This document shows positions 4,734 through 49,855 of a stretch of DNA of 52,942 nucleotides, piece by piece. Below the pieces are notes generated by a model. It did not search any database. It worked only from the letters and a program-made list of their open reading frames with translations, and was not told the origin of the DNA. The DNA is taken from assembly GCF_014174155.1 (NCBI RefSeq), contig NZ_JABEQM010000021.1, positions 1 to 52,942 of the forward strand, given 5' to 3'. The translations under genes and the position numbers were made by a program. This DNA is from Gluconacetobacter tumulisoli. GTDB taxonomy: Bacteria > Pseudomonadota > Alphaproteobacteria > Acetobacterales > Acetobacteraceae. Within the stretch, counting starts at the first letter, position 1. Each line of letters begins with the position of its first letter.

Positions 4734-4849
4734 GGAAAGGCCGGGCTCCGCCCGCACCCGGCAAGGGCCTCGGCCCTTGCATCCCATTTGTTTATCCCTG
4801 ATCGGGGTCCTGGGCCCCAGGCCCTGGTGAGTTCGGGCAACGCCCGATC
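4734..4849. repeat. Dispersed hairpin repeat, modules A (inverted) + B
   Basis: Fills the gap between the convergent maeA and tyrA. The left half is an inverted copy of module A: the hairpin arms gcaagggcc/ggcccttgc and the arms cgggc/gcccg. The right half is module B: gatcggggtcc, gggccccaggccc, then the arms cgggcaacgcccg. The module B arm runs right up to the tyrA stop codon (complement of 4848-4850). Probably acts as a bidirectional terminator. Confidence 0.8.
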
Positions 4850-5783
4850 AGGCCTGGCGGTTTTCGATCAGGCTGCGGCGGATGCGCCGTCCGCGTTCGA
4901 TCCGGTCGACGATGAACGCCTCGTCGCCCCAGCGGATGGCGCGGGCCATGGCCTGCGCGTCCTCGGTGAAGCGGGCCAGCATTTCCAGCAGCGCCTCGCG
5001 GTTGTTCAGGAAGATGTCCCGCCACATCACCGGGTCGGACGCCGCGATGCGGGTGAAATCGCGGAAGCCCGAGGCTGCGAAATCCAGCACTTCCGACCGG
5101 GTTTCGTCCGCCAGGTCGTCGGCGGTGCCGCAGATGGTGAAGGCCAGCAGATGCGGCAGGTGGCTGACGATCGCGCAGACCCGGTCGTGGTGGGCCGGGT
5201 CCATGACGCGCGTGCGCGCACCCATGCGGTGCCACATTTGCTCGATCAGGTCCGTCGCCGCCGGGGGCGTGTCCGGCAGCGGGGTCAGCAGGCACCAGCG
5301 GTCGTCGAACAGGGTGGCGAACCCGGCATCGGGGCCGGAATGCTCGGTCCCCGCCATCGGGTGCGTCGGCACGAACGGCACGTCGGCGCGCAGCGCCGGC
5401 GTGATGGCGGTCAGGATCGACACCTTGGTCGACCCGACCTCGCTGAGGATGGCGCCGGGCTTCATGGCCGGCAGGATCCGGGTCCCGACCTCGGCCACCG
5501 CGCCGACGGGGACGCACAGGATCACGCAATCGGCGTCGGCGACGGCGCGCATCGGGTCCTGCTCCACCTCATCGGCCAGGTCCAGTTCCGCGACCCGGCG
5601 GCACACGTCGGGGTCGATGTCGCAGGCCACCAGTTCGGCCGCGATCGTGCCGTCCCGCCGCGCGCGGCGCAGGATGGACGACCCGATCAGGCCGGGGCCG
5701 ACGATCGCCAGCCTGCGGAACAGCGGCGCGGAGGAATCCGCCGGGGAAACGGTCAGGGAAGCGGTCGTGGGGGACGCGGTCAT
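4848..5783 (-). CDS. tyrA: Prephenate/arogenate dehydrogenase
   Basis: A 311-residue TyrA-family (TyrC-like) dehydrogenase that oxidatively decarboxylates prephenate or arogenate in tyrosine synthesis. The N-terminal Rossmann motif is GPGLIGSS near residues 29-36; the catalytic region HPMAGTEHSGPDA contains the invariant histidine and is followed by the helical dimerisation domain. No chorismate mutase domain is fused. The start is ATG at 5783; the first 20 residues are low-complexity and a later start is possible. It lies 12 bases downstream of hpnL on the same strand, so the two probably share a transcript. The stop codon abuts a dispersed repeat. Confidence 0.9.
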   Translation of the reverse strand: MTASPTTASLTVSPADSSAPLFRRLAIVGPGLIGSSILRRARRDGTIAAELVACDIDPDVCRRVAELDLADEVEQDPMRAVADADCVILCVPVGAVAEVGTRILPAMKPGAILSEVGSTKVSILTAITPALRADVPFVPTHPMAGTEHSGPDAGFATLFDDRWCLLTPLPDTPPAATDLIEQMWHRMGARTRVMDPAHHDRVCAIVSHLPHLLAFTICGTADDLADETRSEVLDFAASGFRDFTRIAASDPVMWRDIFLNNREALLEMLARFTEDAQAMARAIRWGDEAFIVDRIERGRRIRRSLIENRQA

Positions 5784-5795
5784 GATGGGGCCTGT

Positions 5796-6884
5796 TCAGC
5801 GCGAGCGTTCCGACGCGGCATAGGCCGCGGGCTTCTGGTCGCGCGCCGGGGGAATGGCGCGTTCGCGCTGGCGCAGGACGCGCATTTCCGACGCCTGCCA
5901 TAGCAGCAGGACGGGCACGCCGATCACCAGGTCCCGGCCCCGCCGCAGCAGCGACAGGCCCAGCGACAGCGACGGGTCGATCCCGAAGGCTGATCCCAGC
6001 GCTATGTAGGCCGCTTCCTGCACGCCCAGTCCGGCGGGGACCAGGAACGACGCCGACATGATGCCGCAGGCCACGCCCTCGATGGCGATGGCGCCGGCGA
6101 AGCTCAGATGCGCGCCCAGGAAATAATAGGCGACCCAGACCGTGCCCGCGCTGCCGATCCAGGCGATCACGTGCAGCAGCGCGGCCTCGGCGATACGGCC
6201 GGGATGGGACCAGACCTCGTCCAGGCGCTGCTGCATCGTGTCGGCGCTGCTCAGCATTGCGCTGTGCCATTGCGAGGCAATGTTGCGGCTCAGCCCCCGC
6301 GCGACGCGCTTGAGGATCGTGCCGCCATGCCGCTGCGTCCAGATGAAGCCGCCGATGCCCAGGGCCAGCAGGACGGTGCCGATGATGACCGGCTTGGCGA
6401 ACGGGCTGGATTGCTGGTGCGCGACCAGGAAGACCACGGCCACCAGGACGAAGACGATCTGGCCCAGCACCTCGGTCGTCAGGTCGACGATGTTGGCGCT
6501 GGCGGCCTCGGGCCATTCGACGGGGCGGCCGGTCTGCCGCCGCGCCAGGCCCGAACAGGTCGCGCGGATGCCGATCAGGATGCCGCCCAGCTGCGAGAAC
6601 GGCAGGCAGGTCGCCGCCGCGTCGCGTACCATGCGCGATCCCGTCAGGTGCCCCAGCCCGATCTCGCGGCAAGCCGCGTGCCAGGCAAGACCCAGAATTG
6701 CGTCGACCGCAAGCTGGGCCAGCACGGTCGCGCCGAATCCGACCAATCCGATGGACAGGACGGCCTTCACGACCGACCCCGCGCCGAGCCACGCGGTACA
6801 CCCGGTGATCAGGGCCAATCCCAGGAAGGCCAGCAGGATAGTGAGCTTTTTCAAGGATGGATCGCACTTCGTCTGCCGCACCAT
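5796..6884 (-). CDS. hpnL: HpnL-like hopanoid-associated membrane protein (UPF0104/LPG flippase-like)
   Basis: A 362-residue integral membrane protein with about eight hydrophobic segments, including residues around 13-31, 40-62, 138-156, 168-184, 250-290. It resembles the lysylphosphatidylglycerol synthase transmembrane (UPF0104) superfamily to which HpnL belongs, and it lacks the cytosolic lysyl-transferase domain of MprF. Position supports the assignment: it is divergent from hpnA with a 161-base gap. HpnL is a putative transporter or flippase for hopanoid precursors; that role is inference from the family and context. It is transcribed with tyrA. An unrelated member of the superfamily remains possible. 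Confidence 0.8.
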   Translation of the reverse strand: MVRQTKCDPSLKKLTILLAFLGLALITGCTAWLGAGSVVKAVLSIGLVGFGATVLAQLAVDAILGLAWHAACREIGLGHLTGSRMVRDAAATCLPFSQLGGILIGIRATCSGLARRQTGRPVEWPEAASANIVDLTTEVLGQIVFVLVAVVFLVAHQQSSPFAKPVIIGTVLLALGIGGFIWTQRHGGTILKRVARGLSRNIASQWHSAMLSSADTMQQRLDEVWSHPGRIAEAALLHVIAWIGSAGTVWVAYYFLGAHLSFAGAIAIEGVACGIMSASFLVPAGLGVQEAAYIALGSAFGIDPSLSLGLSLLRRGRDLVIGVPVLLLWQASEMRVLRQRERAIPPARDQKPAAYAASERSR

Positions 6885-7045
6885 GGAGCGTCCTCGGCGG
6901 GGCGTTCCGGCGCATGGGTTGCGCCTGACTTACACCAGAGGAGGGTCTGGCGCCACCATGAGGTGTCGGGATAAATGGAACCCCCGCCGCCCCGCGTTTT
7001 CTCGCGGGCGCGCCTTATGACGTTATCGGAGCACCCGGCCGCATC
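6885..7045. promoter_or_regulatory. Divergent hpnL/hpnA control region with leader hairpin
   Basis: A 161-base gap between divergently transcribed hpnL and hpnA that should carry both promoters. A perfect 6-bp hairpin cccgcg-ttttct-cgcggg lies at 6991-7008, 38 bases before the hpnA start, and could form in its leader. No convincing -35/-10 pair stands out. The ggaac at 6977 followed by cgtt at 6995 has only 13 bases between, too short for an EcfG-type promoter. Confidence 0.4.
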
Positions 7046-8041: not shown

Positions 8042-8053
8042 AGGCGCGATCGA

Positions 8054-21770: not shown

Positions 21771-21830
21771 CTGAATCGGGGTCCAGGGCCTCAGACTCTG
21801 GTAGGTTCGGGCAAAGCCCGAAAACCCTGC
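21771..21830. repeat. Dispersed hairpin repeat, module B
   Basis: Single module B copy (gaatcggggtccagggcctcag, then ttcgggcaaagcccgaa) in the convergent gap between xfp and the outer membrane factor. It lies 20 bases from the downstream gene's stop. Confidence 0.75.
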
Positions 21831-32221: not shown

Positions 32222-32284
32222 GCGGAGAAAAACCCCCGCCACCGGATTTTACGGGTTCGGCGAGTGTGCTAGAGGGCGAGCCGG

Positions 32285-32370: not shown

Positions 32371-32403
32371 GCCTGTCTGTCGCAGGTCGCGTCCTGAACC
32401 GGA

Positions 32404-32466: not shown

Positions 32467-32473
32467 GTGCCCC

Positions 32474-32792: not shown

Positions 32793-32925
32793 AATGATAG
32801 AACCCGGGCTTTGCCCGGACCCACCAGGGCCTGAGGCCCTGGACCCCGATCATGCACCACCGACCGGGTTTCAAAGGGGTGGGGTCCTCTGGCGGGTTTC
32901 AGGGCAGCGCCCCGGGGCTTGCGGT
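32793..32925. repeat. Dispersed hairpin repeat, module B (inverted) + module C
   Basis: Inverted module B (cccgggctttgcccgg, then ccagggcctgaggccctggaccccgat) followed by module C (accgggtttcaaa and ccccggggctt). It covers the expected promoter and start region of the FxLYD gene and extends to within about 60 bases of the nadK stop, a co-directional gap. Confidence 0.75.
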
Positions 32926-32986
32926 CGAACGGCGATTCATGACGCGGATGGGTATGAATGCGGCACCTGTCGGACAATGGGCGGGG

Positions 32987-34252: not shown

Positions 34253-35197
34253 ATGGCCCCCTCGTCCTCCCGTTTCGTGGTTTATGCGGCATTGTCGGGC
34301 AACCTGCTGATCGCGTTGGTGAAATTCGGCGCAGCGGCACTGACCGGCAGTGCGGCGATGCTGAGCGAGGCGATCCATTCCCTGATCGATACCGGCAACC
34401 AGGTGCTGCTTCTGGTGGGCATGCGGCGTGCGGCCCGGCCGGCGACGGCGTCGCATCCGTTCGGTTACGGGCTCGAACTGTATTTCTGGACCTTCGTGGT
34501 GGCGTTGCTGATCTTCGGGGTCGGGGCCGGCGTGTCGGTCCTGGAAGGGATCGCCCGGATCCGCCATCCGCATCCCGTTGACCATGTGGCGGTCAACTAC
34601 GCCGTCCTGGCCATCGCCCTGGTGTTCGAGGGCGCGGTCTGGCTGACGGCGCTGCGAACGTTCCGCCGCCACGGCAAGGGCCGGCGCGGCTGGATCGAGG
34701 CGGTGCGGCACAGCAAGGACCCGACCGTCTTCACCGTGTTGTTCGAGGATACGGCCGCGCTGTGCGGCCTTGTGGTCGCGTTGTTGGGCACGATCCTGTC
34801 GGACCTGTTCGACCTGCCGGTCCTGGACGGGGCGGCGTCGATCGTGATCGGGGCGATCCTGGCATTCACGGCCATGTTCCTGGCGCGGGAATCGCAATCC
34901 CTGCTGACCGGCGAGGGCATGGCGGCGGAAGGGCTGGCCCGCGTCCGCGCCATCGCCCTGGCGGAACCGGGCGTGCTGGGCCTGAATGAGATCCGGTCCA
35001 TGCATTTCGGCCCGTCGGACGTGCTGGTGGCGATCAGCCTGGATTTCGATGATGCCGTGTCGGCCGGCCGGGTCGAGGATGCGGTGTCGCGCATCGAACG
35101 ACGGGTCAAGGAAAGCTTCCCCGAAATCACCCACACGTTCATCGAGGCGCAGAATGGCCAGGACCGCCTGGCCGCTGGCGCCCCGAGAATGGCCTGA
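34253..35197 (+). CDS. Cation diffusion facilitator family transporter
   Basis: A 314-residue inner-membrane metal/proton antiporter of the CDF family. Six hydrophobic segments start with SGNLLIALVKFGAAALTGSAAM; the metal-site helix carries SEAIHSLID (HxxxD) near residues 41-45, and a later helix carries FEDTAALCGLVVALLG, with acidic residues in the usual position. The C-terminal soluble domain (VRAIALAEPGVLGLNEIRSMHFGPSDVLVAIS) is the dimerising metallochaperone-like fold. Zinc, iron or manganese export is likely; the metal cannot be told. ATG 34253 follows ggcggagcagtc; the longer frame to 34196 lacks support. Confidence 0.92.
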   Translation: MAPSSSRFVVYAALSGNLLIALVKFGAAALTGSAAMLSEAIHSLIDTGNQVLLLVGMRRAARPATASHPFGYGLELYFWTFVVALLIFGVGAGVSVLEGIARIRHPHPVDHVAVNYAVLAIALVFEGAVWLTALRTFRRHGKGRRGWIEAVRHSKDPTVFTVLFEDTAALCGLVVALLGTILSDLFDLPVLDGAASIVIGAILAFTAMFLARESQSLLTGEGMAAEGLARVRAIALAEPGVLGLNEIRSMHFGPSDVLVAISLDFDDAVSAGRVEDAVSRIERRVKESFPEITHTFIEAQNGQDRLAAGAPRMA

Positions 35198-35236
35198 CAT
35201 GCGGCCTGTCGGCCGATCCGACGCGTGCCGCCAGCT

Positions 35237-35357
35237 TCCCTGGACCCCGATCCGGGAACAGGTCCGAGCTTTTGGCCGTGCCCCTCGCCGACCGGATTTC
35301 AAAGGCGACGCCTTTGATGGGGTTCAAGGGGCAACGCCCCTTGGGCCGGCGCCCCGT
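35237..35357. repeat. Dispersed hairpin repeat, partial module B (inverted) + module C
   Basis: Partial inverted module B (ctggaccccgatccggg) followed by module C: accggatttcaaaggc-gac-gcctttgatgggg, then caaggggcaacgccccttgg. The last arm runs up to the serB stop. It has the same B-then-C order as the copy at 32793. The gap lies between convergent CDF and serB genes. Confidence 0.8.
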
Positions 35358-36253: not shown

Positions 36254-36282
36254 GACGCAAGGCGTGTGGCAGGGATGACGGC

Positions 36283-37281
36283 ATGACGCAAGCGGCGGAT
36301 GGGCCCGCGCGGCCGGTCGTGGTGATCGCGGGGCCGACCTGTTCGGGGAAATCGGCGCTGGCCCTGGCGGTTGCGCGCGCGGTCCGGGGGATGATCGTCA
36401 ACGCGGATTCCATGCAGGTCTATCGTGACCTGCGGATCTTGACCGCCCGTCCGTCGCCGGCGGACGAGGACGCGGTGCCGCATCGCCTGTATGGGGTGCT
36501 GCCGGCCGCGGAAACCGGCAGCGTCGCGTGGTGGCGCCAGCGGGCGGTCGCGGAAATCGAGGCCGCGTGGGCCGAAGCCCGGGTTCCGGTGCTGTGCGGC
36601 GGCACGGGCATGTATCTGCGGGCGCTGACCGACGGCCTGACGGACATCCCCGATCCCGGTCCCGCCGCCCGGGCGGAGGCCCGGGCGCTGGCCGCGGCCG
36701 AAGGCCCTGCCGCCCTGCATGCCCGCCTGGCGGAAGTGGATCCCGAGAGCGCCGCCACGCTGCATCCCGCCGACACCCAGCGGATCGCCCGTGCGTGGGA
36801 GGTCTGGTCCGGCACCGGACGGGGCATCGCCCGCTGGCGGCGGGAGGCGACGCTGCCGCCGCTGGCCTGCCGTTTCGTCGCCATACGCCTGGATCCGCCA
36901 CGCGACATGCTGCGTGCGGCGATCGCGGTCCGGTTCGCGGCGATGGTGCGGGCCGGCGCGCTGGACGAGGTCCGCGCCCTGCTGGCCCGGGATCTGTCGC
37001 CCGCGTTGCCGGCGATGCGGGCGCACGGCGTCCCCGAACTGGCCGCCCATCTGCGGGGCGAGATCACGCTGGACGAGGCCGAACGCCGCGCGGTCCTGGC
37101 CACCGGGCGCTATACGCGGCGGCAATCGACCTGGTTCGGCCACCATTCCCTGGCCGCGCCCGATGACAGTCGGGTGATCGGGACAAGAATATCCGCGGAT
37201 GCGCAACAAATGGAAAGAAACGACGACGATATCGTTTCTTTTATTCTAAACCGGATTGACGCGGGCCGGAGCATTCCCTAA
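36283..37281 (+). CDS. miaA: tRNA dimethylallyltransferase
   Basis: A 332-residue enzyme that transfers a dimethylallyl group to A37 of tRNAs reading codons starting with U, such as the tRNA-Leu(UAA) in this window. The P-loop GPTCSGKSAL is near residue 16; NADSMQVYRDL near 39 and GGTGMYLRAL near 107 complete the catalytic core. The C-terminal TRRQSTWF segment is typical. It is 75 bases upstream of ilvB, possibly co-transcribed. The last 30 residues are not conserved. Confidence 0.95.
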   Translation: MTQAADGPARPVVVIAGPTCSGKSALALAVARAVRGMIVNADSMQVYRDLRILTARPSPADEDAVPHRLYGVLPAAETGSVAWWRQRAVAEIEAAWAEARVPVLCGGTGMYLRALTDGLTDIPDPGPAARAEARALAAAEGPAALHARLAEVDPESAATLHPADTQRIARAWEVWSGTGRGIARWRREATLPPLACRFVAIRLDPPRDMLRAAIAVRFAAMVRAGALDEVRALLARDLSPALPAMRAHGVPELAAHLRGEITLDEAERRAVLATGRYTRRQSTWFGHHSLAAPDDSRVIGTRISADAQQMERNDDDIVSFILNRIDAGRSIP

Positions 37282-37355
37282 ACCCACCCGACATTCCGTC
37301 CGGATGGGCCTCGCTGGGGGCCCTCCTGAACACGCCGGACGGAGGAGCCAGGGAT

Positions 37356-39182: not shown

Positions 39183-39291
39183 CGGACGCGCCCATGCTTC
39201 CGGCCGGATGAGTCGGCCGGACCTTCTTTTTTCCAGTCGGTTGCGGGGTGACGGGGCCCCGCGCCGATATCCATGCAGGAACGGACACATC

Positions 39292-40892
<1,601 letters not shown>

Positions 40893-40904
40893 TCTCGACG
40901 AGTC

Positions 40905-40985
40905 GGGTCCAGGGGACACAGTCCCCTGGACCCCATCAAGGGCCTGCCTTTGAAATCCGGTCGTTGAGCGGCTTTCGGCCGCGAA
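40905..40985. repeat. Dispersed hairpin repeat, module C (inverted), with 13-bp hairpin
   Basis: Begins with the perfect hairpin gggtccaggggac-aca-gtcccctggaccc (40905-40933), then the inverted module C core aaggcctgcctttgaaatccggtcg. It sits 12 bases after ilvC, before the convergent lipoprotein gene. It is the strongest terminator-like structure in the window. Confidence 0.8.
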
Positions 40986-41003
40986 TCTGCGGCGGGGCGG
41001 TTT

Positions 41004-41486
41004 TCAGATCCGTCCGTAGCCGTAGGTGGTCGTCGGCAGGGGACCAAGCCGGTAGGGCATGGCGGCCTGCGGCGACTGGCCCGGGATATGCGGCACCAGC
41101 GTGCGGTCCGGCAGCATGTCGTAGGTATCGTACTGCGTGCCAGGCAGCCCCTTCAAATGAAGGCGCGTCCAGGCCTGCCCGTCGGCAGTCCCGGATTCCA
41201 GTTCCCAGTGATCGCTGTAGAAGACGCTCGACGCGCCCTGCAGCAGGGCGGCCGGATTAAGCGGCGTCATCCGCATCCGATAGGTCCCCTCGCGCACGTC
41301 GGGGGTGCCTTCCAGGACGAGCTGCACATTGCGTTCGTACCCGATGGCGCCGTCGGGCTGATATCCCGACCACTGGCCATAGATGGGGCCGGTCGGACCG
41401 AAGCATCCCCCCAATGTCGCGGCCAGCACGATGGCCCCGATCGCGCCCCGGATGTGTCGCGCGTGCCGGACGACATGATGGCGCAT
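41004..41486 (-). CDS. Small lipoprotein of unknown function
   Basis: A 160-residue protein with a lipoprotein signal: basic N-terminus MRHHVVRHARHIRG, hydrophobic AIGAIVLAAT and lipobox LGGC with the cysteine near residue 28. The mature part is mostly beta-strand-like (YGQWSGYQPDGAIGYERNVQLVLEG...GTYRMRMTPLNP) and ends TTTYGYGRI. It is probably anchored in the outer membrane. ATG 41486 is preferred over 41519, which would add 11 residues. No family recognised. It is convergent with ilvC and divergent from the FAH-family gene. Confidence 0.7.
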   Translation of the reverse strand: MRHHVVRHARHIRGAIGAIVLAATLGGCFGPTGPIYGQWSGYQPDGAIGYERNVQLVLEGTPDVREGTYRMRMTPLNPAALLQGASSVFYSDHWELESGTADGQAWTRLHLKGLPGTQYDTYDMLPDRTLVPHIPGQSPQAAMPYRLGPLPTTTYGYGRI

Positions 41487-41706
41487 GGCCGGACCCTTTT
41501 CTGTGCAACGGTATCGCATGGCGATGGCCTATACAGCAGTGCCGTCCGGGGCGCATCCGGCTGTCATTGCATTGCTTCCCGCACCTGCATGCCGTGGGGG
41601 AGGGCTGCCGGCCCTCGGCCTCACCGGCTCGTGCGTCATCCCGACGCGTCGCGCATGCTATGTGGCGGCCACGCCATGTCGTGGCCACAGACAGGAAGCA
41701 GGATAT

Positions 41707-42399
41707 ATGGTCGAGTATGTGATTCCCCCGCCCCCGCAGGCCAGCCTGGCGGTCGTGGGCGGCGACGCGCGTTTCCCGGTGCGCCGCATCTGGTGCGTGG
41801 GCCAGAATTATGCCGAACACACCCGCGAAATGGGACAGGAACCGGGTCGCGCGCCGCCTTTCTTCTTCGCCAAGCCCGCCGACGCGGTGGTGCCCGGCGG
41901 CGGGGTGCTGCCGTTCCCGGTGAAGACGTCGAACCTGCATCACGAGGTCGAACTGATCGTGGCGATCGGCCAGGGCGGGCGGGACATCCCGGTCGCCGAC
42001 GCCCTGTCGCATGTCTATGGCTACGCGCTCGGCCTCGACATGACGCGGCGCGACCTGCAGGCCGAAGCCAAGAAGGCCGGCCGGCCCTGGGCATTGGCCA
42101 AGGGGTTCGACCAGTCCTGCCCGATCGGTCCCGTCATGCCGGCGGATCGGATGGGTTCGCCGGACGCGGGCCGGATCGCCCTCGCCGTAAATGGTGAAAT
42201 CCGGCAGCAGGGCGACCTGGCGGACATGATCTGGCCGGTGGCCGAAATCGTCTCGCAGCTCAGCGCCTTCGTGGCGCTGGCCCCGGGCGACCTGATCATG
42301 ACCGGCACGCCCGCGGGCGTGGGCGCGGTACGGCCCGGCGACGTGCTGCATGCGACCTGCGACGGCCTCGGCGCACTGGATGTGACCTACGGCGCCTGA
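41707..42399 (+). CDS. Fumarylacetoacetate hydrolase-family protein
   Basis: A 230-residue FAH-superfamily enzyme, close to fumarylpyruvate hydrolase/acylpyruvase types. The metal ligands lie in HHEVELIVAIG (ExE) and GYALGLDMTRRD, the core starts RIWCVGQNYAEHTREMG near residue 26, and KGFDQSCPIGP and MTGTPAGVGAV are the other conserved blocks. The frame is open to 41485, but similarity starts only after 41707. Substrate unclear; such enzymes act on acylpyruvates in aromatic degradation, though no pathway is nearby. Confidence 0.88.
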   Translation: MVEYVIPPPPQASLAVVGGDARFPVRRIWCVGQNYAEHTREMGQEPGRAPPFFFAKPADAVVPGGGVLPFPVKTSNLHHEVELIVAIGQGGRDIPVADALSHVYGYALGLDMTRRDLQAEAKKAGRPWALAKGFDQSCPIGPVMPADRMGSPDAGRIALAVNGEIRQQGDLADMIWPVAEIVSQLSAFVALAPGDLIMTGTPAGVGAVRPGDVLHATCDGLGALDVTYGA

Positions 42400-42446
42400 T
42401 TGCGACGACGGCGTCGCCTCCGGAACCCGGGGGCTTCAAAAAACGA

Positions 42447-42503
42447 ACGGGATGCAAGGGCCCCGGCCCTTGCCGGGTTCGGGCAGCGCCCGACCTTCCT
42501 TTT
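42447..42503. repeat. Dispersed hairpin repeat, module A
   Basis: Direct module A: gatgcaagggccccggcccttgc and cgggttcgggcagcgcccgacctt. It lies between the convergent FAH-family gene and the LysR regulator, ending about 12 bases from the regulator's stop. Confidence 0.8.
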
Positions 42504-42514
42504 CCACCGGGCAC

Positions 42515-43405
42515 CTACGGGAACTCGCCCGGATGCAGCAACTCGCTCATGAACAGGGCGATCTTGTGCGACTGGGCGGTGCTGACGGTATGGATGGCGT
42601 AGAAGGTGACCGGGTCGGGCTCCCAGGCCTCCATCACCGTCTCCAGCCGGCCGGCGCGCAGATGGTCCTCGACCTCCCACAATGATTTCTGGGCCAGGCC
42701 CAGCCCGTCCAGCGCCCATTGGACGGGCAATTCCGAATTGCTGGATGCCAGCACGCCGTCGACCCGCAGGATGCGGATGTCCTCCCCCCGGCCGAACCGC
42801 CATTCCCCGCGGCACTGGCCGGTCATGTTGGCGACCAGGCAGGCATGGCGGGCCAGGTCGCCCGGCGTCTCGGGTCGCCCATGCCGCGCCAGGTAGCCGG
42901 GGCTGGCCACCAGCACCCGCCGGCTTTCCATCAGCCGTCGCCCGGTCAGCGTGGTATCGACGACGGGGGCCGCGCGGATGGCGATGTCATATCCCTCGCC
43001 CACGATGTCCGTCATCCGGTCTTCCAGCGCCAGATGGACGCGCATGTCGGGATGGCGCCGGGCGAACCCGGCGACGAACGGTGCCAGGCGGATGCGGCCG
43101 AACGGCACGGGCGCGGTGACGCGCAACATGCCGCCGGGGGCGTTCACGGTGGCGCGGACCCGCGCCTCCATCCCGGCGGTGGCCGCCATGATGGCGGTGG
43201 CCTCGTCCAGATAGATCCGCCCCGCCTCGGTCAGGGTCTGGCGGCGCGTGGTGCGGACCAGCAGGCGTGTGCCCAGCCGGCGTTCCAGACGCGACAGCCG
43301 GTCGCTGACGACCGATGGCGCCAGCCCCAGATGGCGGGCCGCTGCCGACAGGCCCCCCTGGCGGACGATCTCGACGAAAATCTCCATCTCGTCCGCGTCG
43401 CGCAT
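42515..43405 (-). CDS. LysR-family transcriptional regulator
   Basis: A 296-residue LysR protein. The N-terminal HTH is MEIFVEIVRQGGLSAAARHLGLAPSVVSDRLSRLERRLG (residues 6-45), followed by a linker helix and a periplasmic-binding-like effector domain. ATG 43405 is chosen; the frame extends to 43498 but would run through the promoter gap. It is divergent from the aldo/keto reductase with 113 bases between starts, the classic arrangement for controlling that gene. Effector unknown. Confidence 0.93.
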   Translation of the reverse strand: MRDADEMEIFVEIVRQGGLSAAARHLGLAPSVVSDRLSRLERRLGTRLLVRTTRRQTLTEAGRIYLDEATAIMAATAGMEARVRATVNAPGGMLRVTAPVPFGRIRLAPFVAGFARRHPDMRVHLALEDRMTDIVGEGYDIAIRAAPVVDTTLTGRRLMESRRVLVASPGYLARHGRPETPGDLARHACLVANMTGQCRGEWRFGRGEDIRILRVDGVLASSNSELPVQWALDGLGLAQKSLWEVEDHLRAGRLETVMEAWEPDPVTFYAIHTVSTAQSHKIALFMSELLHPGEFP

Positions 43406-43518
43406 CGATCCTTCGCCTTTTCCGGAAGCTGTTTTCCGGATTTGACGGTTATCATTCCCCGGCGGCGGCGCCCATAGTCCCCAGGGATATTCGATCATAT
43501 TCGACCGGGAGACCTACC

Positions 43519-44577
43519 ATGCAGTATCGCCAGCTCGGCCGCTCCGGCCTGCGCGTATCCGTCTTCACCCTCGGGACGATGACGTTCGGCGGCAAGGGCG
43601 CCTTCGCCAAGACCGGCAGCACGGACGTGGCGGGCGCCAAGCGGCAGATCGACATGTGCATCGAGGCCGGCATCAACATGTTCGATACCGCCGACGTCTA
43701 TTCCTCCGGCGTGTCCGAGGAAATCCTGGGCGAGGCGCTGAAGGGCCGCCCGCAGGAGATCCTGGTCGGCACCAAGGCCCGCTTCCACATGGGGCCGGGG
43801 CAGAATGACGCCGGGTCCTCGCGCTATCATATCGTCAGCGCGTGCGAGGCCAGCCTCCGCCGGCTGGGACGCGATCACATCGACCTGTATTATCTGCACG
43901 AATGGGACGGGCAGACCCCGCTGGACGAAACGCTGGAGGCCCTGGACACCCTGACCCGCTCGGGCAAGATCCGCTATGCCGGGGTGTCCAATTTCTCGGG
44001 CTGGCACATCATGAAGGCGCTGGGCACGGCGGAACGCAACCGCCTGATCGCCCCGGTGTCGCAGCAGATCTATTATTCGCTGCAGGCGCGCGAGGCCGAG
44101 TACGAATTGCTGCCGCTGGCCCTCGACCAGGGTCTCGGCGTCCAGGTCTGGAGCCCGATGGCGGGCGGCCTGCTGTCGGGCAAGCACCGGCGCGGCAAGC
44201 CGGAACCCGAGGGCACGCGCCAGCTGGCCCAGTGGAACGAACCGCCGGTCTATGACATCGAAAAGCTGTATGACGTGGTCGAGGTCCTGGTGGCGATCGG
44301 CGCGGAACGCGGGGTGTCGGCGGCCCAGGTGGCGCTGGCCTGGGTGGCGCATCGCCCGGCCATTACCTCGGTGGTGATCGGGGCCCGTACCGACGCGCAG
44401 CTTGCCGACAATCTGAAGGCCGCCGAACTGGCGCTCTCGGCCGAGGAAATGGCCCGGCTGGACAAGGCCAGCGCACCGCCGCTGATCTATCCCTACTGGC
44501 ACCAGGCCAGCACATCGTCGGACCGGTTGTCGGCGGCGGATCTGCTGCTGCTCGGCCCGTCGATCAAGACGGCATAG
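43519..44577 (+). CDS. Aldo/keto reductase
   Basis: A 352-residue (beta/alpha)8 NADPH-dependent oxidoreductase. The catalytic Asp and Tyr are in NMFDTADVYSSG near residue 55-62, the Lys in ILVGTKARF and the His in YYLHEWD. The NADPH site includes SPMAGGLLSGKHRRG and VVIGARTDAQL. The end DRLSAADLLLLGPSIKTA is family-like. ATG 43519 is chosen; the frame to 43315 is not conserved. It is divergent from the LysR regulator and 5 bases upstream of the secreted GlcG-like gene. Confidence 0.93.
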   Translation: MQYRQLGRSGLRVSVFTLGTMTFGGKGAFAKTGSTDVAGAKRQIDMCIEAGINMFDTADVYSSGVSEEILGEALKGRPQEILVGTKARFHMGPGQNDAGSSRYHIVSACEASLRRLGRDHIDLYYLHEWDGQTPLDETLEALDTLTRSGKIRYAGVSNFSGWHIMKALGTAERNRLIAPVSQQIYYSLQAREAEYELLPLALDQGLGVQVWSPMAGGLLSGKHRRGKPEPEGTRQLAQWNEPPVYDIEKLYDVVEVLVAIGAERGVSAAQVALAWVAHRPAITSVVIGARTDAQLADNLKAAELALSAEEMARLDKASAPPLIYPYWHQASTSSDRLSAADLLLLGPSIKTA

Positions 44578-44582
44578 CGGCG

Positions 44583-45107
44583 GTGCCCCGCTCCACCTTC
44601 GTGGCGATGGGCGTGGCCTGCGCCGCCCTCGTTGCGGCGTCCCCGGCCCGGGCAGCCGGGTCCCCGATCATCACGACCCAGAAACTGTCATGGGAACTTG
44701 CCGAACGCCTGGCCGCGACGGCGGTGCGGATCTGTGCCGCGCGCGGATGGTCGGTGACGGCGGCGGTGGTCGACCCTTCGGGACACGAACAGGTCATCAT
44801 CAAGGGCGATACCGTGCCGCTGCAATCGCTGTCGGTGTCCTATCGCAAGGCCTATACGGCTTATGCCTACGGCCTGGCCTTCGACAAGGATACGACCAGC
44901 GCCCTGATCGCGGCGAAGGTGACGGGCCCGGAAAACGGGGCCCTGAACACGATTCCGCAGGTTCTGTTCGTGCCCGGCGGCGCGCTGATCCGCCGGGCCG
45001 ACCGGACGATCCTGGGGGGCGTCGGGGTATCCGGCGCCCCCGGCGGCGACAAGGACGAGGCCTGTGCCGTCGACGCGCTGAAGGAAGTCTCCCCGCAGTT
45101 CCGCTAG
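44583..45107 (+). CDS. Secreted GlcG/HbpS-family protein
   Basis: A 174-residue protein starting at GTG 44583, five bases after the aldo/keto reductase stop. A signal peptide (ATFVAMGVACAALVAASPARAA-like, residues 6-25) precedes a GlcG/HbpS (DUF336) domain: SVTAAVVDPSGHEQVIIKGD, YRKAYTAYAYGL and the closing GGVGVSGAPGGDKDEACA. Family members bind haem or related cofactors or small ligands; a function in glycolate use is suggested only by the name. Export to the periplasm is inferred from the signal. Probably co-transcribed with the reductase. Confidence 0.85.
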   Translation: MPRSTFVAMGVACAALVAASPARAAGSPIITTQKLSWELAERLAATAVRICAARGWSVTAAVVDPSGHEQVIIKGDTVPLQSLSVSYRKAYTAYAYGLAFDKDTTSALIAAKVTGPENGALNTIPQVLFVPGGALIRRADRTILGGVGVSGAPGGDKDEACAVDALKEVSPQFR

Positions 45108-45171
45108 GCCGGCGTCCGGGGTGGTGGGCGGCGGCCTTGCGTGGCGGCGGAAAGGCGGCAATGTTTGTAAC

Positions 45172-46554
45172 ATGAAACGTCTCTCCGGCTTGCGCGCCCG
45201 CCTGCGCCCCTGTCTCGTTCCCGCCCTGTCCGCCGTGCTGTGCCTGGGGACCATGCACGCCCCGATGGCCGCAGCCCCCGGCGGCCTGCCCCATCCGGAC
45301 CAGGCGATGCTGCGCCAGACGGTGACGGCGATGGTCGGGTTCGGTACGCGGCACACGCTGTCCACCACGACGGACGCGGGGCGCGGGATCGGGGCGGCGC
45401 GGCGCTGGGTGGCCGATCGGTTCGCGACCTATGGCGCGGCCTGCGGCGGCTGCCTGTCGGTCGAGACGATCGGCGACCGCTTCACCGGCCCGCGCGCGCC
45501 GGATGGTGTGCGGGTGGAAGACGTGCTGGCGGTACAGAAGGGCACGACCGATCCCGACCGCGTGGTGATCGTGCAGGCCCATATCGACAGCCGCGTGAAC
45601 GATGTGATGGACGCGACCACCGACGCGCCCGGTGCCAATGACGACGCGTCGGGCGTGGCGCTGGTGATGGAGGCCGCGCGCCTGCTGTCGCGGCAGCATT
45701 TCCCCGCCACGATCGTCTATGCCGTGCTGTCGGGCGAGGAGCAGGGATTGTGGGGCGGCGAATTGCTGGCCCGTACGGCCAAGGCGCGCGGGTGGCAAGT
45801 GGCCGGCGTGCTGAACAACGACATCGTCGGCAATACCCATGGCATCGGGGGGGAGCACGTCGATAATCGCGTTCGCGTATTCAGCGAGGGTATCCGCGCG
45901 GCTGCCGATGCCGCCGGCATCAAGGCGCAGCGCGCGACGGGGGGTGAGGACGATTCGCCGTCCCGCGCGCTGGCGAAGGCGGTGGTGATGGGGGCGGAGG
46001 CACATCCGGGCCTCGGGCTGTCGGTGCTGGCGGTACGGCGGCCCGACCGTTTCATGCGCGGTGGGGACCATATTCCCTTCCTGGCCGAGGGCTTTCCGGC
46101 CGTCCGCTTTACCGAGGCGGTCGAGGATTACGACCGCCAGCACCAGCGTGTGCGGGTCGAGGCCGGCCGCCAGTATGGCGACACCATCGCGTTCGTGGAT
46201 TTCCCGTATCTGGCGCGGGTCACGGCGTTGAACATGCTGGTGCTGTCCGACCTGGCAGCCGCCCCCGCGGCGCCCGCCACGGCGACGATCGCCGGTGCGC
46301 TGTCGGACGACACGACGGTGACCTGGGCGGTCGTTCCTGGGGCCGTGTCCTATCGCGTGCGCTGGCGTCTCGCCGACGGGACGGTCTGGACGGACCGGCG
46401 CGATACGCCTGCGAACGCGACGTCGCTGGTGCTGAAGAACGTGAATATCGACGATCATGTCTTCGGTGTATCGGCCCTTTCCGCGACGGGGGCCGAAAGC
46501 CTCGTGACCTTCGCCGGCATGCCGCCGCGCCCGATTCCCGGCCATACACGCTGA
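45172..46554 (+). CDS. Exported M28-family metallopeptidase
   Basis: A 460-residue zinc aminopeptidase-like enzyme. Signal peptide residues 1-33. The metal ligands and catalysts are visible: His in VQAHIDSR, Asp in PGANDDASGVA, the Glu pair in LSGEEQGLWGG, Asp in LNNDIVGN and His in RGGDHIPFLA. After residue about 375 an Fn3-like C-terminal domain (TVTWAVVPGAVSYRVRWRL) follows. ATG 45172 starts the signal peptide; the longer frame to 45121 is not conserved. The S10 peptidase gene is next but separated by a 426-base gap. Confidence 0.92.
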   Translation: MKRLSGLRARLRPCLVPALSAVLCLGTMHAPMAAAPGGLPHPDQAMLRQTVTAMVGFGTRHTLSTTTDAGRGIGAARRWVADRFATYGAACGGCLSVETIGDRFTGPRAPDGVRVEDVLAVQKGTTDPDRVVIVQAHIDSRVNDVMDATTDAPGANDDASGVALVMEAARLLSRQHFPATIVYAVLSGEEQGLWGGELLARTAKARGWQVAGVLNNDIVGNTHGIGGEHVDNRVRVFSEGIRAAADAAGIKAQRATGGEDDSPSRALAKAVVMGAEAHPGLGLSVLAVRRPDRFMRGGDHIPFLAEGFPAVRFTEAVEDYDRQHQRVRVEAGRQYGDTIAFVDFPYLARVTALNMLVLSDLAAAPAAPATATIAGALSDDTTVTWAVVPGAVSYRVRWRLADGTVWTDRRDTPANATSLVLKNVNIDDHVFGVSALSATGAESLVTFAGMPPRPIPGHTR

Positions 46555-46980
46555 CGTCGCGCGCTTACGGAACCTGTCGTTGATCCACGCCCGGGGACCA
46601 GGGCCCCGGGCCCTGTCAGGCCCGGCGAAAGGCCGCCCCGTTCCGACGTATCATTGCGAAGAATAAATATTATTTGCAGATGATTGGGAATCTCTCTTTC
46701 CATATCACAATAAAATTAAATTTACGACATACGCGATCACCCGCGATTGTTCCGGGAACAGGCCATTGTTATAGCTGGGCCCCTGCTATATCCGAACGAT
46801 CCTGCAAGGAGATCCGTCCTGCCAATCCGCCGGAAACGGCGCGGGATCGTCCTGTTTGCGCCGTGCGACGACTGTCCCGCCAGGTTCCGGTTTTCGATCG
46901 ACCCTTGCGCGGCGCGTCTCTCTGCCTGTCTGCAGCATGACGGTGCGTGATTGTGCTGCGCAGCAACCAAGACAGATGAG
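46555..46980. other. 426-base gap with an AT-rich block and two palindromes
   Basis: Besides the diverged repeat, 46648-46740 is strikingly A+T-rich for this GC-rich window (runs such as aataaatattattt and aaaattaaattta). A perfect palindrome TGTTCC-G-GGAACA lies at 46748-46760 and TATAGC-N9-GCTATA at 46770-46790. Together these look like an upstream promoter/operator region for the S10 peptidase at 46981. No convincing gene was found in it; candidate frames of 60-100 codons lack family matches. Confidence 0.5.
46586..46645. repeat. Dispersed hairpin repeat, diverged module B
   Basis: Sequence ggaccagggccccgggccctgtcaggcccggcgaaaggccgcc follows the module B pattern but is diverged in both arms. 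It lies just after the M28 gene in a tandem gap. Confidence 0.6.
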
Positions 46981-48624
46981 ATGACACGATCCTTCCTTCT
47001 CGCCGGCGTCGCCCTGGCGATGCTGGCGCCATGCCTTGCCATGCCCCGCCTCTCTGCAGCGCGGGCCGAGGATCATCCGATCCACGCCGACATCCCGGCC
47101 AAATCCGCCACAGGCGGGTTCGATTTTACCCCGCAGCAGAAGATTTCGGACGGCACGGTCACCGTGCGCGGGCAGAAGATCGCCTATCAGGCCGTTGCGG
47201 GCACGCTGATCGTCCATCCCCGTGACTGGGACGATGCCGCCCCGGAAAAGAAGGCCAAGCCCGAGGAAGAGCCGGTCGCGGCGATGTTCTATGTCGCCTA
47301 CTTCAAGAAAGGGGCGGCAAGCACCGCGCGCCCGATCACCTTCGTCTATAATGGCGGGCCGGGTTCGGCGACGGTCTGGCTGCATATGGGCGCGTTCGGC
47401 CCGCGGCGCATCGTGACGGCGGACGACACGCATACCGCCGCCGCGCCGTACAAGCTGATCGATAATGACGATAGCCTGCTGGATGTGACGGATCTGGTCT
47501 TCATCGACGCGCCGGGCACCGGTTTCGGTCGCCTGGGCGGCAAGGACAAGGACAAGGCGTTCTACGGCACCGATCCCGATGCCTGGGCCTTCACGGATTT
47601 CATCGCCCAGTTCCTGGGCCGCTACCGCCGTTATAACTCGCCCAAATATCTGTATGGCGAAAGCTATGGCACCACCCGATCGGCCATCGTCGCCAACATG
47701 CTGAAGCAGGACAAGGAAATCGACCTGAACGGGGTAATGCTGCTGTCGCAGATCCTCGATTACGATAACAGCATCGATCGTCCGCAGAACAATCCCAGCG
47801 TCGATCAGCCCTATGTCCTGGCGCTGCCCAGCTTCGCTGCCACGGCGTGGTACCACCACAAGCTGCCGCAGCAGCCGGCGGACCTGAAGGCCTTCCTGCA
47901 TGAGGTCGAGCATTTCGCCCTGACCGACTATACCAGCGCCCTGCAGGAGGGCACGGCGATTTCCGATGCGCGCTTCAACGACATCGCCGCGCGGCTGCAT
48001 ACCTATACGGGCCTGCCGGTCGATTACATCAAGCACGCGAACCTGCGTGTGAATGGCGGCGAGTTCGAAAAGACCCTGATGGGGGACGAAGACACCGACA
48101 CCGGCCGCCTGGACAGCCGTTTCTCCGGCATTTCGATCGATCCGCTGTCGCAGCGTCCGTTCTATGATCCGATGGATTCATCGATGGGGTCGGCCTATCT
48201 GTCCACCTTCAACGATTACGCACGCGACGTGCTGCATTACGGCGGCGAAAGCCCGACTGGCGCCTATGAGGAATACAAGGTCAGCGCCCATTCCATCGGC
48301 GCCTGGTCGTTCACCCACGAACAGCCCGACAGCCCGCATTCAAACCGCGGCCTGCCCAACGTGCTGCCCGACCTGGCCATGGCGATCAAGGAAAACCCCC
48401 TGCTGAAGGTCCAGCTGAACCAGGGTTATTTCGATCTCGGTACGCCGTATTTCGAGGGCGTGTTTGAAATGCGCCATCTGCCGATCCCGCGCAAGCTGGC
48501 GGGCAATGTCGAAATCCATCAGTACATGTCGGGCCACATGGTCTATGCCCATGCGCCGGCGCTGAAGGAACTGCACGACAACGCCGCCGACTTCATCCGC
48601 CGGACCGACAACCTGCCCGGTTGA
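46981..48624 (+). CDS. S10-family serine carboxypeptidase-like protein
   Basis: A 547-residue exported protein; the first 26 residues form a signal (TRSFLLAGVALAMLAPCLAM). The serine nucleophile is in YGESYGTTRS near residue 231, the oxyanion segment VYNGGPGSATVWLHMG near 122, an acid in NQGYFDLGTPY and the histidine in SGHMVYAHAP near the end. This order matches peptidase S10. ATG 46981 is chosen; the frame to 46951 adds ten non-conserved residues. With the M28 gene it would give two exported exopeptidase-type enzymes. The alcohol dehydrogenase follows 97 bases later. Confidence 0.92.
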   Translation: MTRSFLLAGVALAMLAPCLAMPRLSAARAEDHPIHADIPAKSATGGFDFTPQQKISDGTVTVRGQKIAYQAVAGTLIVHPRDWDDAAPEKKAKPEEEPVAAMFYVAYFKKGAASTARPITFVYNGGPGSATVWLHMGAFGPRRIVTADDTHTAAAPYKLIDNDDSLLDVTDLVFIDAPGTGFGRLGGKDKDKAFYGTDPDAWAFTDFIAQFLGRYRRYNSPKYLYGESYGTTRSAIVANMLKQDKEIDLNGVMLLSQILDYDNSIDRPQNNPSVDQPYVLALPSFAATAWYHHKLPQQPADLKAFLHEVEHFALTDYTSALQEGTAISDARFNDIAARLHTYTGLPVDYIKHANLRVNGGEFEKTLMGDEDTDTGRLDSRFSGISIDPLSQRPFYDPMDSSMGSAYLSTFNDYARDVLHYGGESPTGAYEEYKVSAHSIGAWSFTHEQPDSPHSNRGLPNVLPDLAMAIKENPLLKVQLNQGYFDLGTPYFEGVFEMRHLPIPRKLAGNVEIHQYMSGHMVYAHAPALKELHDNAADFIRRTDNLPG

Positions 48625-48721
48625 TCCGCCGCGTGACCCTGCCGCCGTTGATCTGTATCATGGCGGCAGCGGGGCCGGTGCGCCTTTGCTGAAACCCGAC
48701 ATACGGGCGGAGGGCAAGAGA

Positions 48722-49750
48722 ATGGCCGGGACAATGAAGGCAGCCGTCGTACGGGCGTTCGGCGCGCCCCTGACGATCGAGGAACTGGCGGTTCCGCAGA
48801 TCCGGCCCGACCAGATTCTGGTGAAGATGGACGCCTGCGGGGTCTGCCATACCGACCTGCACGCCGCGCGCGGCGACTGGCCGGTGAAGCCCACGCCGCC
48901 CTTCATTCCGGGGCATGAAGGGGTGGGCCATGTGGTGGCCGTGGGCAGCGCGGTGAAATGGGTGCGCGAGGGCGATGTGGTCGGCGTGCCCTGGCTGTAT
49001 TCCGCCTGCGGGCATTGCGAACATTGCCTGGGCGGGTGGGAAACGCTGTGCAAGACGCAGGACGACACCGGCTATACCGTCAACGGCTGCTTTGCCGAAT
49101 ATGTGGTGGCCGATCCGAATTACGTGGCGCATCTGCCCAAGGGGGTGGATCCGGTCCAAGTCGCACCGGTGCTGTGCGCGGGGCTGACGGTCTACAAGGG
49201 CCTGAAGATGACCGATGCCCGCCCGGGCCAGTGGGTGGCGGTCTCGGGCGTGGGCGGGCTGGGGCAGATGGCGGTGCAGTATGGCGTGGCCATGGGCCTG
49301 AACGTGATTGCCGTCGATATCGACGACGGCAAGCTGGCGACGGCCCGTACACTGGGGGCGGCTCTGACGGTCAATGCGGCCCAGACCGATCCCGCCGCCT
49401 TCATCCAGGATCATGTGGGCGGCGCGCACGGCACGCTGGTGACGGCGGTGTCGCGCAGCGCCTTCGCGCAGGCCATGGGCTACGCCCGACGGGGCGGAAC
49501 GATCGTGCTGAACGGCCTGCCCCCGGGTGAATTCCCGATTTCGATCTTCGACATGGTGATGGCAGGCACGACGGTGCGGGGATCCATCGTCGGCACCCGC
49601 CTGGACATGATCGAGGCCCTGTCCTTCTTCGCCGACGGCAAGGTCCGCACTGTGGTGGCCCCGGAACGGTTGGAGAACATCAATCGCATCTTCGACGATC
49701 TGGAACACGGCACAGTACAGGGCCGCATGGTGATCGACTTCCGGAACTGA
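48722..49750 (+). CDS. adhP: Zinc-dependent alcohol dehydrogenase (AdhP-type)
   Basis: A 342-residue medium-chain dehydrogenase. The catalytic zinc site starts with DACGVCHTDLHAARGDW (residues 37-53) and GHEGVGHVV; the structural zinc is in SACGHCEHCLGGWETLC. The Rossmann motif VSGVGGLGQMAVQYG is near residue 173. It oxidises primary alcohols such as ethanol in the cytosol with NAD(P). In acetic acid bacteria most ethanol is oxidised by the membrane quinoprotein system, so this enzyme is probably secondary. ATG 48722 follows ggagggcaagag; the frame to 48686 is not conserved. Confidence 0.93.
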   Translation: MAGTMKAAVVRAFGAPLTIEELAVPQIRPDQILVKMDACGVCHTDLHAARGDWPVKPTPPFIPGHEGVGHVVAVGSAVKWVREGDVVGVPWLYSACGHCEHCLGGWETLCKTQDDTGYTVNGCFAEYVVADPNYVAHLPKGVDPVQVAPVLCAGLTVYKGLKMTDARPGQWVAVSGVGGLGQMAVQYGVAMGLNVIAVDIDDGKLATARTLGAALTVNAAQTDPAAFIQDHVGGAHGTLVTAVSRSAFAQAMGYARRGGTIVLNGLPPGEFPISIFDMVMAGTTVRGSIVGTRLDMIEALSFFADGKVRTVVAPERLENINRIFDDLEHGTVQGRMVIDFRN

Positions 49751-49797
49751 GGCGGGCGACGTCCCTAACCCACAGATTATCATGGATTTTATGGACG

Positions 49798-49855
49798 AAC
49801 GCGATGCAAGGGCCTCGGCCCTTGCCGGGTTCGGGCGGAGCCCGACCTTCCCCGG
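49798..49855. repeat. Dispersed hairpin repeat, module A
   Basis: Direct module A: cgatgcaagggcctcggcccttgc and cgggttcgggcggagcccgacctt. It is in the tandem gap between adhP and clpB, about 50 bases after the adhP stop. Confidence 0.8.

Follow-up and report, generated by a model that had tools for sequence, protein, structure and literature searches.

Repeat copies at the locus

The window, the whole stretch of 52,942 nucleotides that was analysed, is contig C21 of a Gluconacetobacter tumulisoli genome that is near those of G. johannae and G. azotocaptans. Its genes were called with our own gene caller, with a filter on GC content by codon position, and of 20 called proteins that were tested, 17 matched a Pfam family in the frame assigned to them. 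A preliminary description of this DNA had placed eight intergenic copies of a hairpin repeat between these genes, and all eight were recovered by two covariance models (R1 and R2), together with long inverted matches of 46-73 nt (78-91% complementary) that join copies to one another (I1-I4). The repeat unit is approximately 55 bp long and consists of an outer hairpin (H2), an ACCC-type linker and an inner hairpin (H1).

The first copy (about 4735-4853) contains two units. An A-type unit (4735..4790, minus strand; R1 30.8 and R2 31.7 bits) has its outer end 12 nt downstream of where a malic enzyme gene stops (assigned by Pfam; 3076-4722, plus strand), while a B-type unit (4799..4853, plus; R1 72.6 bits) faces it with its inner end and overlaps with its outer end the stop codon of a prephenate dehydrogenase gene (4848-5783, minus). 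Another dimer (32798-32917), located in a tandem gap, has a B-type unit as its left half (32798..32852, minus; R1 80.7 bits) and a C-type unit as its right half (32867..32917, plus; R2 59.3 bits), the inner hairpin of which is decayed when aligned with the orthologous G. azotocaptans copy (L175). The copy at 35195-35347 comprises a weak remnant of a B-type unit (35195..35253, minus; R1 15.2 bits) and a C-type unit (35294..35345, plus; R2 40.3 bits), which lies in the convergent gap between a cation efflux gene and a HAD hydrolase gene, 11 nt from the facing stop codon.

The other copies are single units. Those in convergent gaps are a lone B-type unit between a phosphoketolase gene and an outer-membrane efflux gene (21773..21827, plus; R1 68.5 bits), 22 nt from the facing stop codon; a C-type unit (40907..40958, minus; R2 27.0 bits), 14 nt behind the stop codon of ilvC (39873-40892, plus); and an A-type unit between the genes of an FAA hydrolase and a LysR regulator (42444..42499, plus; R1 45.6 bits). 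Tandem gaps hold a diverged B-like unit between M28 and S10 peptidase genes (46588..46642, plus; R1 27.1 bits) and an A-type unit between an alcohol dehydrogenase gene and clpB (49796..49851, plus; R1 39.7 bits), the latter being common to the window and G. johannae.

The distance to stop codons, initially put at about 20 bases, holds for five of the eight copies, which are within 22 nt, but not for those at 46588 (33 nt), 49796 (45 nt) and 32798-32917 (69 nt). Five of the six convergent gaps of at least 60 bp in the window carry a copy; the sixth (32222-32473) has none and houses a tRNA-Leu gene. The tRNA (32285-32367) was the only feature in the window to reach the Rfam gathering score and, with no Rfam match for the repeat there, a known RNA family was rejected as its identity.

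One unit type and one dimer arrangement

The repeat had been described as modules A, B and C joined in both orders and orientations. Instead, the three are variants of the single unit described above: A and B could be aligned across the whole unit, and separate, independent modules were ruled out because R2, the model for C, also detects A and B copies. The supposed freedom of arrangement disappeared as well, as only one arrangement was found genome-wide. In all 53 two-unit elements the inner ends are face to face, those of the sole four-unit element face likewise, and the modal length of the dimer spacer is 14 nt.

Scanning the whole genome with consensus models, as had been suggested, showed that the modules abound beyond the window, with 193 units in 137 elements. 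For R1, 106 of the 142 matches listed were used (full-length, at least 18.1 bits); weaker matches were set aside, as were partial ones on the opposite strand of the same palindromes. For R2, 142 matches were also listed, from which partial 6-26 matches and those below 20 bits were left out, and four window matches were added from a separate scoring of the window. Units were labelled AB or C according to the better-scoring model, hence some A units carry the C label. Chance does not account for the number of copies: when as many as two mismatches were allowed, the H2 pattern matched the genome 121 times and its reversed form 8 times, and for the exact B pattern the counts were 17 and 0. The density of units is uneven between contigs. 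With regard to the replication axis, the contig with dnaA (C10) has an average density, and a dif consensus had no match.

Two hairpins could be parsed in 179 of the 193 units, while 14 were not parsable. Within the parsed units, the H1 stem is 8-9 bp in 127 and its loop 2-3 nt in 141, the H2 stem is 6-7 bp in 114 and its loop 3 nt in 133, and ACCC is present near the hairpins in 145. The stems of A/B units covary, with 94.8% of cells paired compared with 84.2% in shuffles and 121 double changes compared with 30.1 (none of 500 shuffles was as high), in an alignment that had been fitted to the model. Among C units, the values are no higher than in shuffles for two out of five measures of covariation.

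Placement relative to genes

For 132 elements the gap could be classified, which omits two elements inside genes and three at contig edges: 69 are in convergent, 54 in tandem and 9 in divergent gaps, so that convergent and tandem gaps together hold 123 of all 137. The reference was a sample of 194 gaps of at least 60 bp from 20 regular 20-kb stretches (25 convergent, 125 tandem, 44 divergent). Compared with it, elements are in excess in convergent gaps (69/132 against 25/194; binomial, 2.5e-27) and in deficit in divergent gaps (9/132 against 44/194; binomial, 9.6e-7). An earlier count with R1 only (n = 106) gave 53 convergent, 40 tandem, 6 divergent, 4 in-gene and 3 edge cases. The convergent bias seen in the window is therefore strong genome-wide, and copies are not spread evenly across divergent gaps. 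Two stricter claims, a copy in every convergent gap and in no divergent one, are true only locally. The former holds for the protein-coding gaps of the window but not for the sample, where a unit was found in 2/25 convergent, 6/125 tandem and 1/44 divergent gaps (3, 6 and 0 gaps with R1 matches and an earlier gene call), therefore most convergent genes do without the repeat. The latter stands in the window (0/7 divergent gaps, of which an earlier gene call had six), but 9 of the 137 elements in the genome are divergent.

In 108 of the 193 units the outer end falls between -40 and +30 nt relative to the stop of a gene pointing at it, whereas the inner end does so in 18. At least one facing stop codon is within 30 nt in 62/69 convergent and 33/54 tandem elements, while 38 of all 137 elements have none within this distance. 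In convergent gaps, lone units have the outer end nearer in 33/44 cases; in tandem gaps they show no orientation preference, the upstream stop codon being faced by 13 outer and 16 inner ends. Tandem elements are closer to the upstream stop codon than to the downstream start codon in 42/54 cases (medians 17 and 69 nt).

The convergent bias and the inverted dimers could also be explained by a DNA element, such as a cruciform or a binding site for a protein (gyrase or IHF, both known from BIMEs), that handles supercoils between convergent genes, and BIMEs have been described with protein binding and chromosome organisation in the relevant passages of PMC2817692. We regard this as very improbable. 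The way in which tandem elements hug the upstream stop codon is a better fit to RNA; our tests for conserved binding sites covered linkers and tags.

Terminator features

The preliminary description had suggested bidirectional terminators. The placement fits this idea, but most units have no U-tract. Reading in gene sense, none of the 179 parsed units has TTTT among the 8 nt that directly follow either hairpin, and on the other strand it follows H2 in four. A units are T-richer, yet only in 4/38 do the 10 nt that follow H1 contain at least five T. A scan of 32943-52942 for terminator patterns showed no excess (8 found, 8.7 expected), although two of the eight fall in the 42444-42499 copy, which has T-rich tails on both strands (42479-42493, plus; 42465-42448, minus). 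A GC hairpin with a direct U-tract, as in a classical intrinsic terminator, is thus not what the units present, although some A units come close. What unit anatomy and placement do present is a hairpin cluster, in which two or more hairpins are separated by under 15 nt close to a stop codon.

It is accordingly improbable that the copies are ordinary intrinsic terminators, inherited in place and alike only through their GC-rich stems rather than as a mobile family. The position behind stop codons and the T-rich tails of part of the A units would be expected of such terminators. Not expected of them are shared sequence that extends through entire units and dimers, linkers and the modal 14-nt spacer included, and the presence or absence of elements between sister species.

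Variation between relatives

Copy numbers across species of the genus range from 6 to at least 91, with two genomes at the ceiling of 95 scored candidates, and the same gene pair can be with or without the element in named sister species. At one clean empty site, the gap measures 20 bp in G. asukensis but 115 bp, with a unit, in the window; a target-site duplication, as a MITE would leave, was not evident at this one site. A number of orthologous copies have decayed, and there are half copies as well. In comparisons of orthologous A/B units against those of G. johannae and G. azotocaptans, 7/8 substitutions were in loops, by a hand count summed over four pairwise comparisons in which the loop change of one copy was counted twice. 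Sister Gluconacetobacter lineages have, in its stead, large numbers of an unrelated hairpin repeat that is AT-rich and can occupy the position behind the same genes. For 30 units from six other genera, a facing stop codon was within 40 nt in 14, none was found in 10 and a contig edge applied to 10, which makes 3' placement in these genera suggestive only.

Mobility had also been suggested, with a RAYT-type transposase as a possible partner. Presence and absence among sister species fit insertion or loss; the RAYT mechanism is not supported, as Y1_Tnp (PF01797), the one autonomous partner covered by the search, had no match in the host genome (99.9% complete) or in the 23 other family genomes searched. 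In the same search, 5/40 relatives were positive, all from other families, and control matches were obtained in 5/14 named genomes. RAYT-driven REPs were therefore rejected for the host genome.

Such variation would be expected if the repeats were purely selfish, inserting widely with no function for the host and surviving only behind genes, where insertions would end near both stop codons because ancestral convergent gaps were short. The wide range of copy numbers, the G. asukensis gap, the decayed and half copies, the uneven density between contigs and the lone tandem units without orientation preference all favour this explanation, which we consider a possible but clearly less likely one. 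It accounts less well for the tandem elements that still hug the upstream stop codon, and for the covarying A/B stems with orthologous changes mainly in loops, although copying could need folding too.

Possible role and comparison with known systems

On balance, we favour a REP/BIME-like family of small repeats that probably acts at the RNA level, on both strands, to mark 3' ends, and that has spread without a RAYT of its own. The full element spans about 120 bp, consists of two of the two-hairpin units in inverted orientation and follows directly on stop codons. From the gene outwards, the order is the stop codon, usually 0-20 nt, H2, the ACCC-type linker and H1, after which the same parts return in mirrored order to serve the opposite strand. 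As the order of units is mirrored, each message between convergent genes would, if the element is transcribed, end in its own stable pair of hairpins, and the repeat may mark message ends in both directions. The hairpin cluster could help the polymerase to stop, perhaps together with Rho, block exonucleases at the 3' end of the message and keep convergent transcription out of the neighbouring gene. Copying or transposition could have spread the element, with copies retained mainly where 3' ends tolerate or use them. Several observations speak against this reading: the U-tracts missing from most units, the lone tandem units without a preferred orientation, the C-unit covariation that does not surpass shuffles in every measure, the elements with no facing stop codon nearby, the many convergent gaps that lack a unit, and the decayed orthologous copies. 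A further one comes from a model-free scan for double hairpins in 59 named loci above 60% GC and our own sample, which required perfect stems and was too strict to be decisive: in our own sample, 0/6 near-3' cases had an ACCC linker, while in the named loci ACCC came after the first hairpin in 4/26 near-3' and 5/254 in-gene cases.

A further reading, which we consider rather unlikely, is that Acetobacteraceae possess their own class of two-way 3'-boundary element, in which U-less double hairpins with a fixed ACCC-type single strand and stems changing between genera are read by some protein, not by polymerase alone, and are multiplied other than by RAYT transposition. As an AT-rich repeat can lie behind the same genes in sister lineages, the position behind the stop codon, and not the sequence, would be selected.

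The family bears on the way in which REP-like repeats multiply when they have no RAYT, and on whether they are tolerated passengers or working message ends. With two-hairpin units, a single dimer arrangement and precise placement it offers a clean test case, as do sister species in which a gap has the element or lacks it, or in which another hairpin repeat follows the gene in question.

No published description of this family was found in the literature searched. It can be likened by description to rhizobial RIME elements, which are repeated palindromes without a GTAG or CGTC tag. The same likeness by description extends to the palindromic repeats without these tags in Brucella, Bordetella, Mycobacterium tuberculosis and Deinococcus that are named as REP-like in a section of PMC3733652.

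The preliminary comparison with REP/BIME elements was upheld in the broad sense, as there are many extragenic palindromic copies, with 53 inverted two-unit elements among the 137, and these copies lie mostly 3' of genes, close to stop codons and with a marked preference for convergent gaps. Tags are less alike. GTAG was found within 6 nt of either hairpin, on either strand, in only 4/179 parsed units, while the looser GT[AG]G was near hairpins in 38/179, a raw count without a chance level. CGTC was found in 6/179, [CT]GTC in 14/179 and CCTC in 10/179, and while the H1 stem mostly has the 8-9 bp of CGTC REPs, the H2 stem is mostly shorter and the loops, mostly 2-3 nt, do not reach their 4-5.

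In the hairpin-cluster terminators of PMC8355165, fewer than 15 nt separate the two hairpins, which commonly start no further than 20 nt from the stop codon and for which joint termination has been proposed. Two close hairpins near a stop codon are shared with our units, but those terminators are a structural class derived from predictions and RNA-seq and not a repeat family, whereas our units are defined by sequence.

In the passages of PMC3733652 on CGTC REPs of alphaproteobacteria, these have no dedicated transposase, and form mainly head-to-head dimers with heterodimers common; most conv-REPs of S. wittichii lie no more than 20 bp from both 3' ends. The present family is similar in having no Y1_Tnp match in the genomes searched, forming inverted dimers and lying close to 3' ends, but differs in the rarity of CGTC, the ACCC-type linkers, the shorter loops and the two-hairpin unit. 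The same passages report CGTC repeats as missing in Acetobacteraceae, the family of the host, to which a REP-like family is added here.

GTAG REP/BIME elements, in the portions of PMC3733652 and PMC2817692 that deal with them, are RAYT-associated, high-copy extragenic palindromes with inverted dimers, mainly in convergent and unidirectional gaps near 3' ends, with roles described in transcription termination and mRNA stabilisation. Our repeat differs from them in having two hairpins per unit rather than one, in the rarity of GTAG and in the absence of Y1_Tnp from the genomes searched. It resembles them in copy number, palindromes, inverted dimers and 3'-end placement, and appears to form a new branch within the REP/BIME repeats already known.

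Structure and arrangement of the repeat unit

In the preliminary description, A, B and C were treated as separate modules, which was not borne out: A and B form one unit with an inner hairpin (H1), a linker of CGGGT or similar and an outer hairpin (H2), C units follow an identical plan, and a model made from C units picks up A and B copies too. H1 is CCAGGGCC/GGCCCTGG in B units and GCAAGGGCC/GGCCCTTGC in A units, and H2 is TCGGGC nnn GCCCGA in both. In C units, H1 is CCAAAGG../..CCTTTGG, the linker YGGGT, and H2 either CAGGGC nnn GCCCTG or CAAGGGC nnn GCCCTTG. Read from the gene, the order is stop codon, usually 0-20 nt, H2, an ACCC-type linker, H1 and then an ACCC-, ATCC- or AAAC-type stretch, with ACCC no more than 6 nt from a hairpin in 145 of the 179 parsed units. 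For four genes of this genome (G000:C2:84515, C19:2390, C20:21756 and C7:41749), the called ORF enters the repeat and ends at the TGA that makes up the loop of a B-type H1; at these sites, both the stop codon and a C-terminal tail would come from the repeat.

The window is the entire contig C21 of a genome that is 99.9% complete and spans 3,962,674 bases over 49 contigs. Its MiaA shares 91-92% identity with the proteins of Gluconacetobacter johannae and G. azotocaptans, compared with 83% for that of G. diazotrophicus PA1 5, which places the host in Gluconacetobacter (Acetobacteraceae). The gene calls were made for this analysis, and 17 of the 20 window proteins tested had a Pfam match in the called frame.

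Genome-wide, the covariance model R1, built from 14 B units, yielded 106 accepted units and R2, built from 20 C units, 87 more, giving 193 units in 137 elements: 83 of a single unit, 53 of two and one of four. All multi-unit elements were arranged (-)(+) or (-)(+)(-)(+), with inner ends face to face, and no other arrangement was found in the genome within the 100-bp joining distance. The two-unit elements combined one best-R1 and one best-R2 unit in 47 of 53 cases. The modal spacer between model ends was 14 nt. The median length of two-unit elements was 120 nt, and their median fold energy was -58.7 kcal/mol on one strand and -60.9 kcal/mol on the other.

Element density was uneven between contigs (C7, C21, C12, C19 and C20 vs C6 and C3). 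C7 (238 kb) carried 30 elements against 8.2 expected (Poisson 4e-9) and the window 8 against 1.8, whereas C6 (240 kb) had one and C3 (422 kb) four; density on C10, which carries dnaA, was average.

Placement relative to genes

It had been proposed that every convergent protein-coding gap of the window carries a copy and no divergent gap does. A strong bias of this kind was found genome-wide, but it is not absolute: 69 elements were in convergent gaps, 54 in tandem gaps, 9 in divergent gaps, 2 in genes and 3 at contig edges. As background, 20 regular 20-kb stretches, picked irrespective of hits, contained 25 convergent, 125 tandem and 44 divergent gaps of at least 60 bp, resulting in a binomial probability of 2.5e-27 for the convergent excess and 9.6e-7 for the divergent deficit. 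The convergent bias of R1 units holds without the window (48/88, p 1e-20). In the window, the sole convergent gap of at least 60 bp without a unit (32222-32473) holds a tRNA-Leu gene.

The outer end was located -40 to +30 nt from the facing stop in 108 of 193 units, and the inner end in 18. Counting against a strict placement rule, lone tandem units showed no orientation preference (13 vs 16), 38 of the 137 elements had no facing stop within 30 nt, and only 2 of the 25 sampled convergent gaps carried a unit. Some element-free convergent gaps are very short, such as the 20-bp gap of G. asukensis, so that insertion anywhere in them would land near both stops. The tandem gaps, in which the upstream stop was closer than the downstream start for 42 of 54 elements, are less open to this confounder than the convergent result.

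Possible selection on folding

For the A/B units (105 distinct rows), 94.8% of cells were paired and double changes numbered 121 compared with 30.1 in shuffles, with slid versions far lower, in an alignment that was fitted to the model and consists of related copies. For the 20 C units, percentage paired, double changes and covariation score were all above 500/500 shuffles; pairs with double changes (3 vs 3.7) and further pair types (17 vs 16.1) showed no excess over shuffles. When A/B units of the window were aligned with their counterparts in G. johannae or G. azotocaptans (three gaps, four comparisons), a count from the alignments gave 8 substitutions, 7 of them in loops. The C unit at 32867 has its inner hairpin broken relative to the G. 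azotocaptans copy, and one of the hairpins behind ilvC is missing in G. azotocaptans.

Possible function at RNA 3' ends

In gene sense, the T content of the first 8 nt was 3% behind H2 and 16% behind H1, and TTTT was found there in none of the 179 parsed units; A units were T-richer on both sides. Terminator-pattern matches in 32943-52942 numbered 8, against 8.7 expected by chance, 2 of them within the copy at 42444-42499. A plain intrinsic terminator therefore fits only some A units.

E. coli REPs near stop codons reportedly affect translation and mRNA decay. Clusters of two hairpins near the stop are proposed as terminators (PMC8355165), and REPs are described as helping Rho-dependent termination (PMC2817692). 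This leads us to favour a role of the units as a putative two-way RNA 3'-end boundary. The main rival is a purely selfish repeat.

Spread, gain and loss

All 14 genomes of the genus, counting the one that holds the window, had R1 matches at E values up to 0.001, as did 16 of 22 further genomes of the family and 3 of 24 from other families. A second search of six family genomes (E up to 1e-6) gave 141, 56, 39, 27, 8 and 8 matches; in the units of these genomes the order 'GC hairpin, ACCC, GC hairpin, ACC' is retained, with different stems. Outside the genus, a sketch of 30 units placed 5 in convergent, 12 in tandem and 2 in divergent gaps, 1 in a gene and 10 at contig edges. The contig-end units (L256, L261, L269, L273, L279 and other loci) hint at longer or near-identical repeats that break the assemblies there.

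The window shares the unit in the FAA hydrolase/LysR gap with G. johannae and G. azotocaptans; the gap is just 20 bp in G. asukensis, and the unit is also absent in G. tumulicola and G. aggeris, but the LysR gene matches only in part there. A different, AT-rich hairpin repeat is carried in the cation efflux/HAD gap by G. tumulicola and G. asukensis, and behind ilvC, followed there by a different downstream gene, by G. diazotrophicus, G. tumulicola, G. asukensis and G. aggeris. It can fill the same gap as the GC-rich unit (L176 14469, L177 8839/14519, L178 8839/14519 and L179 14532; genomes G001-G013).

The three R1-richest of the 14 genus genomes had 91, at least 95 and at least 95 R1 matches with 6, 2 and 2 AT-rich pattern matches, and the remaining 11 had 6-32 and 18-83, respectively; the reversed pattern gave 0-1 per genome. 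AT-rich matches fell into groups of 49-83 (six genomes), 18-22 (five) and 2-6 (the three R1-richest). This inverse abundance may reflect one lineage event.

Relation to known repeats

The suggestion of a REP/BIME-like element fits in the broad sense and fails for the two tagged classes: the repeat differs from GTAG-REPs in that the GTAG tag is rare (4 of 179 parsed units) and no RAYT was found in this genome or in 23 others of the family, and from CGTC-REPs in tag (CGTC in 6 of 179) and loops. The gap pattern noted in the preliminary description is known for REP-type repeats, since PMC3733652 already describes, for tagged REPs, heterodimers, conv-REPs near both 3' ends and a preference for convergent and unidirectional gaps. 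The same paper reports CGTC repeats as missing in Acetobacteraceae. Within the literature searched, what is new is the repeat family itself, two-hairpin and untagged, in Acetobacteraceae.
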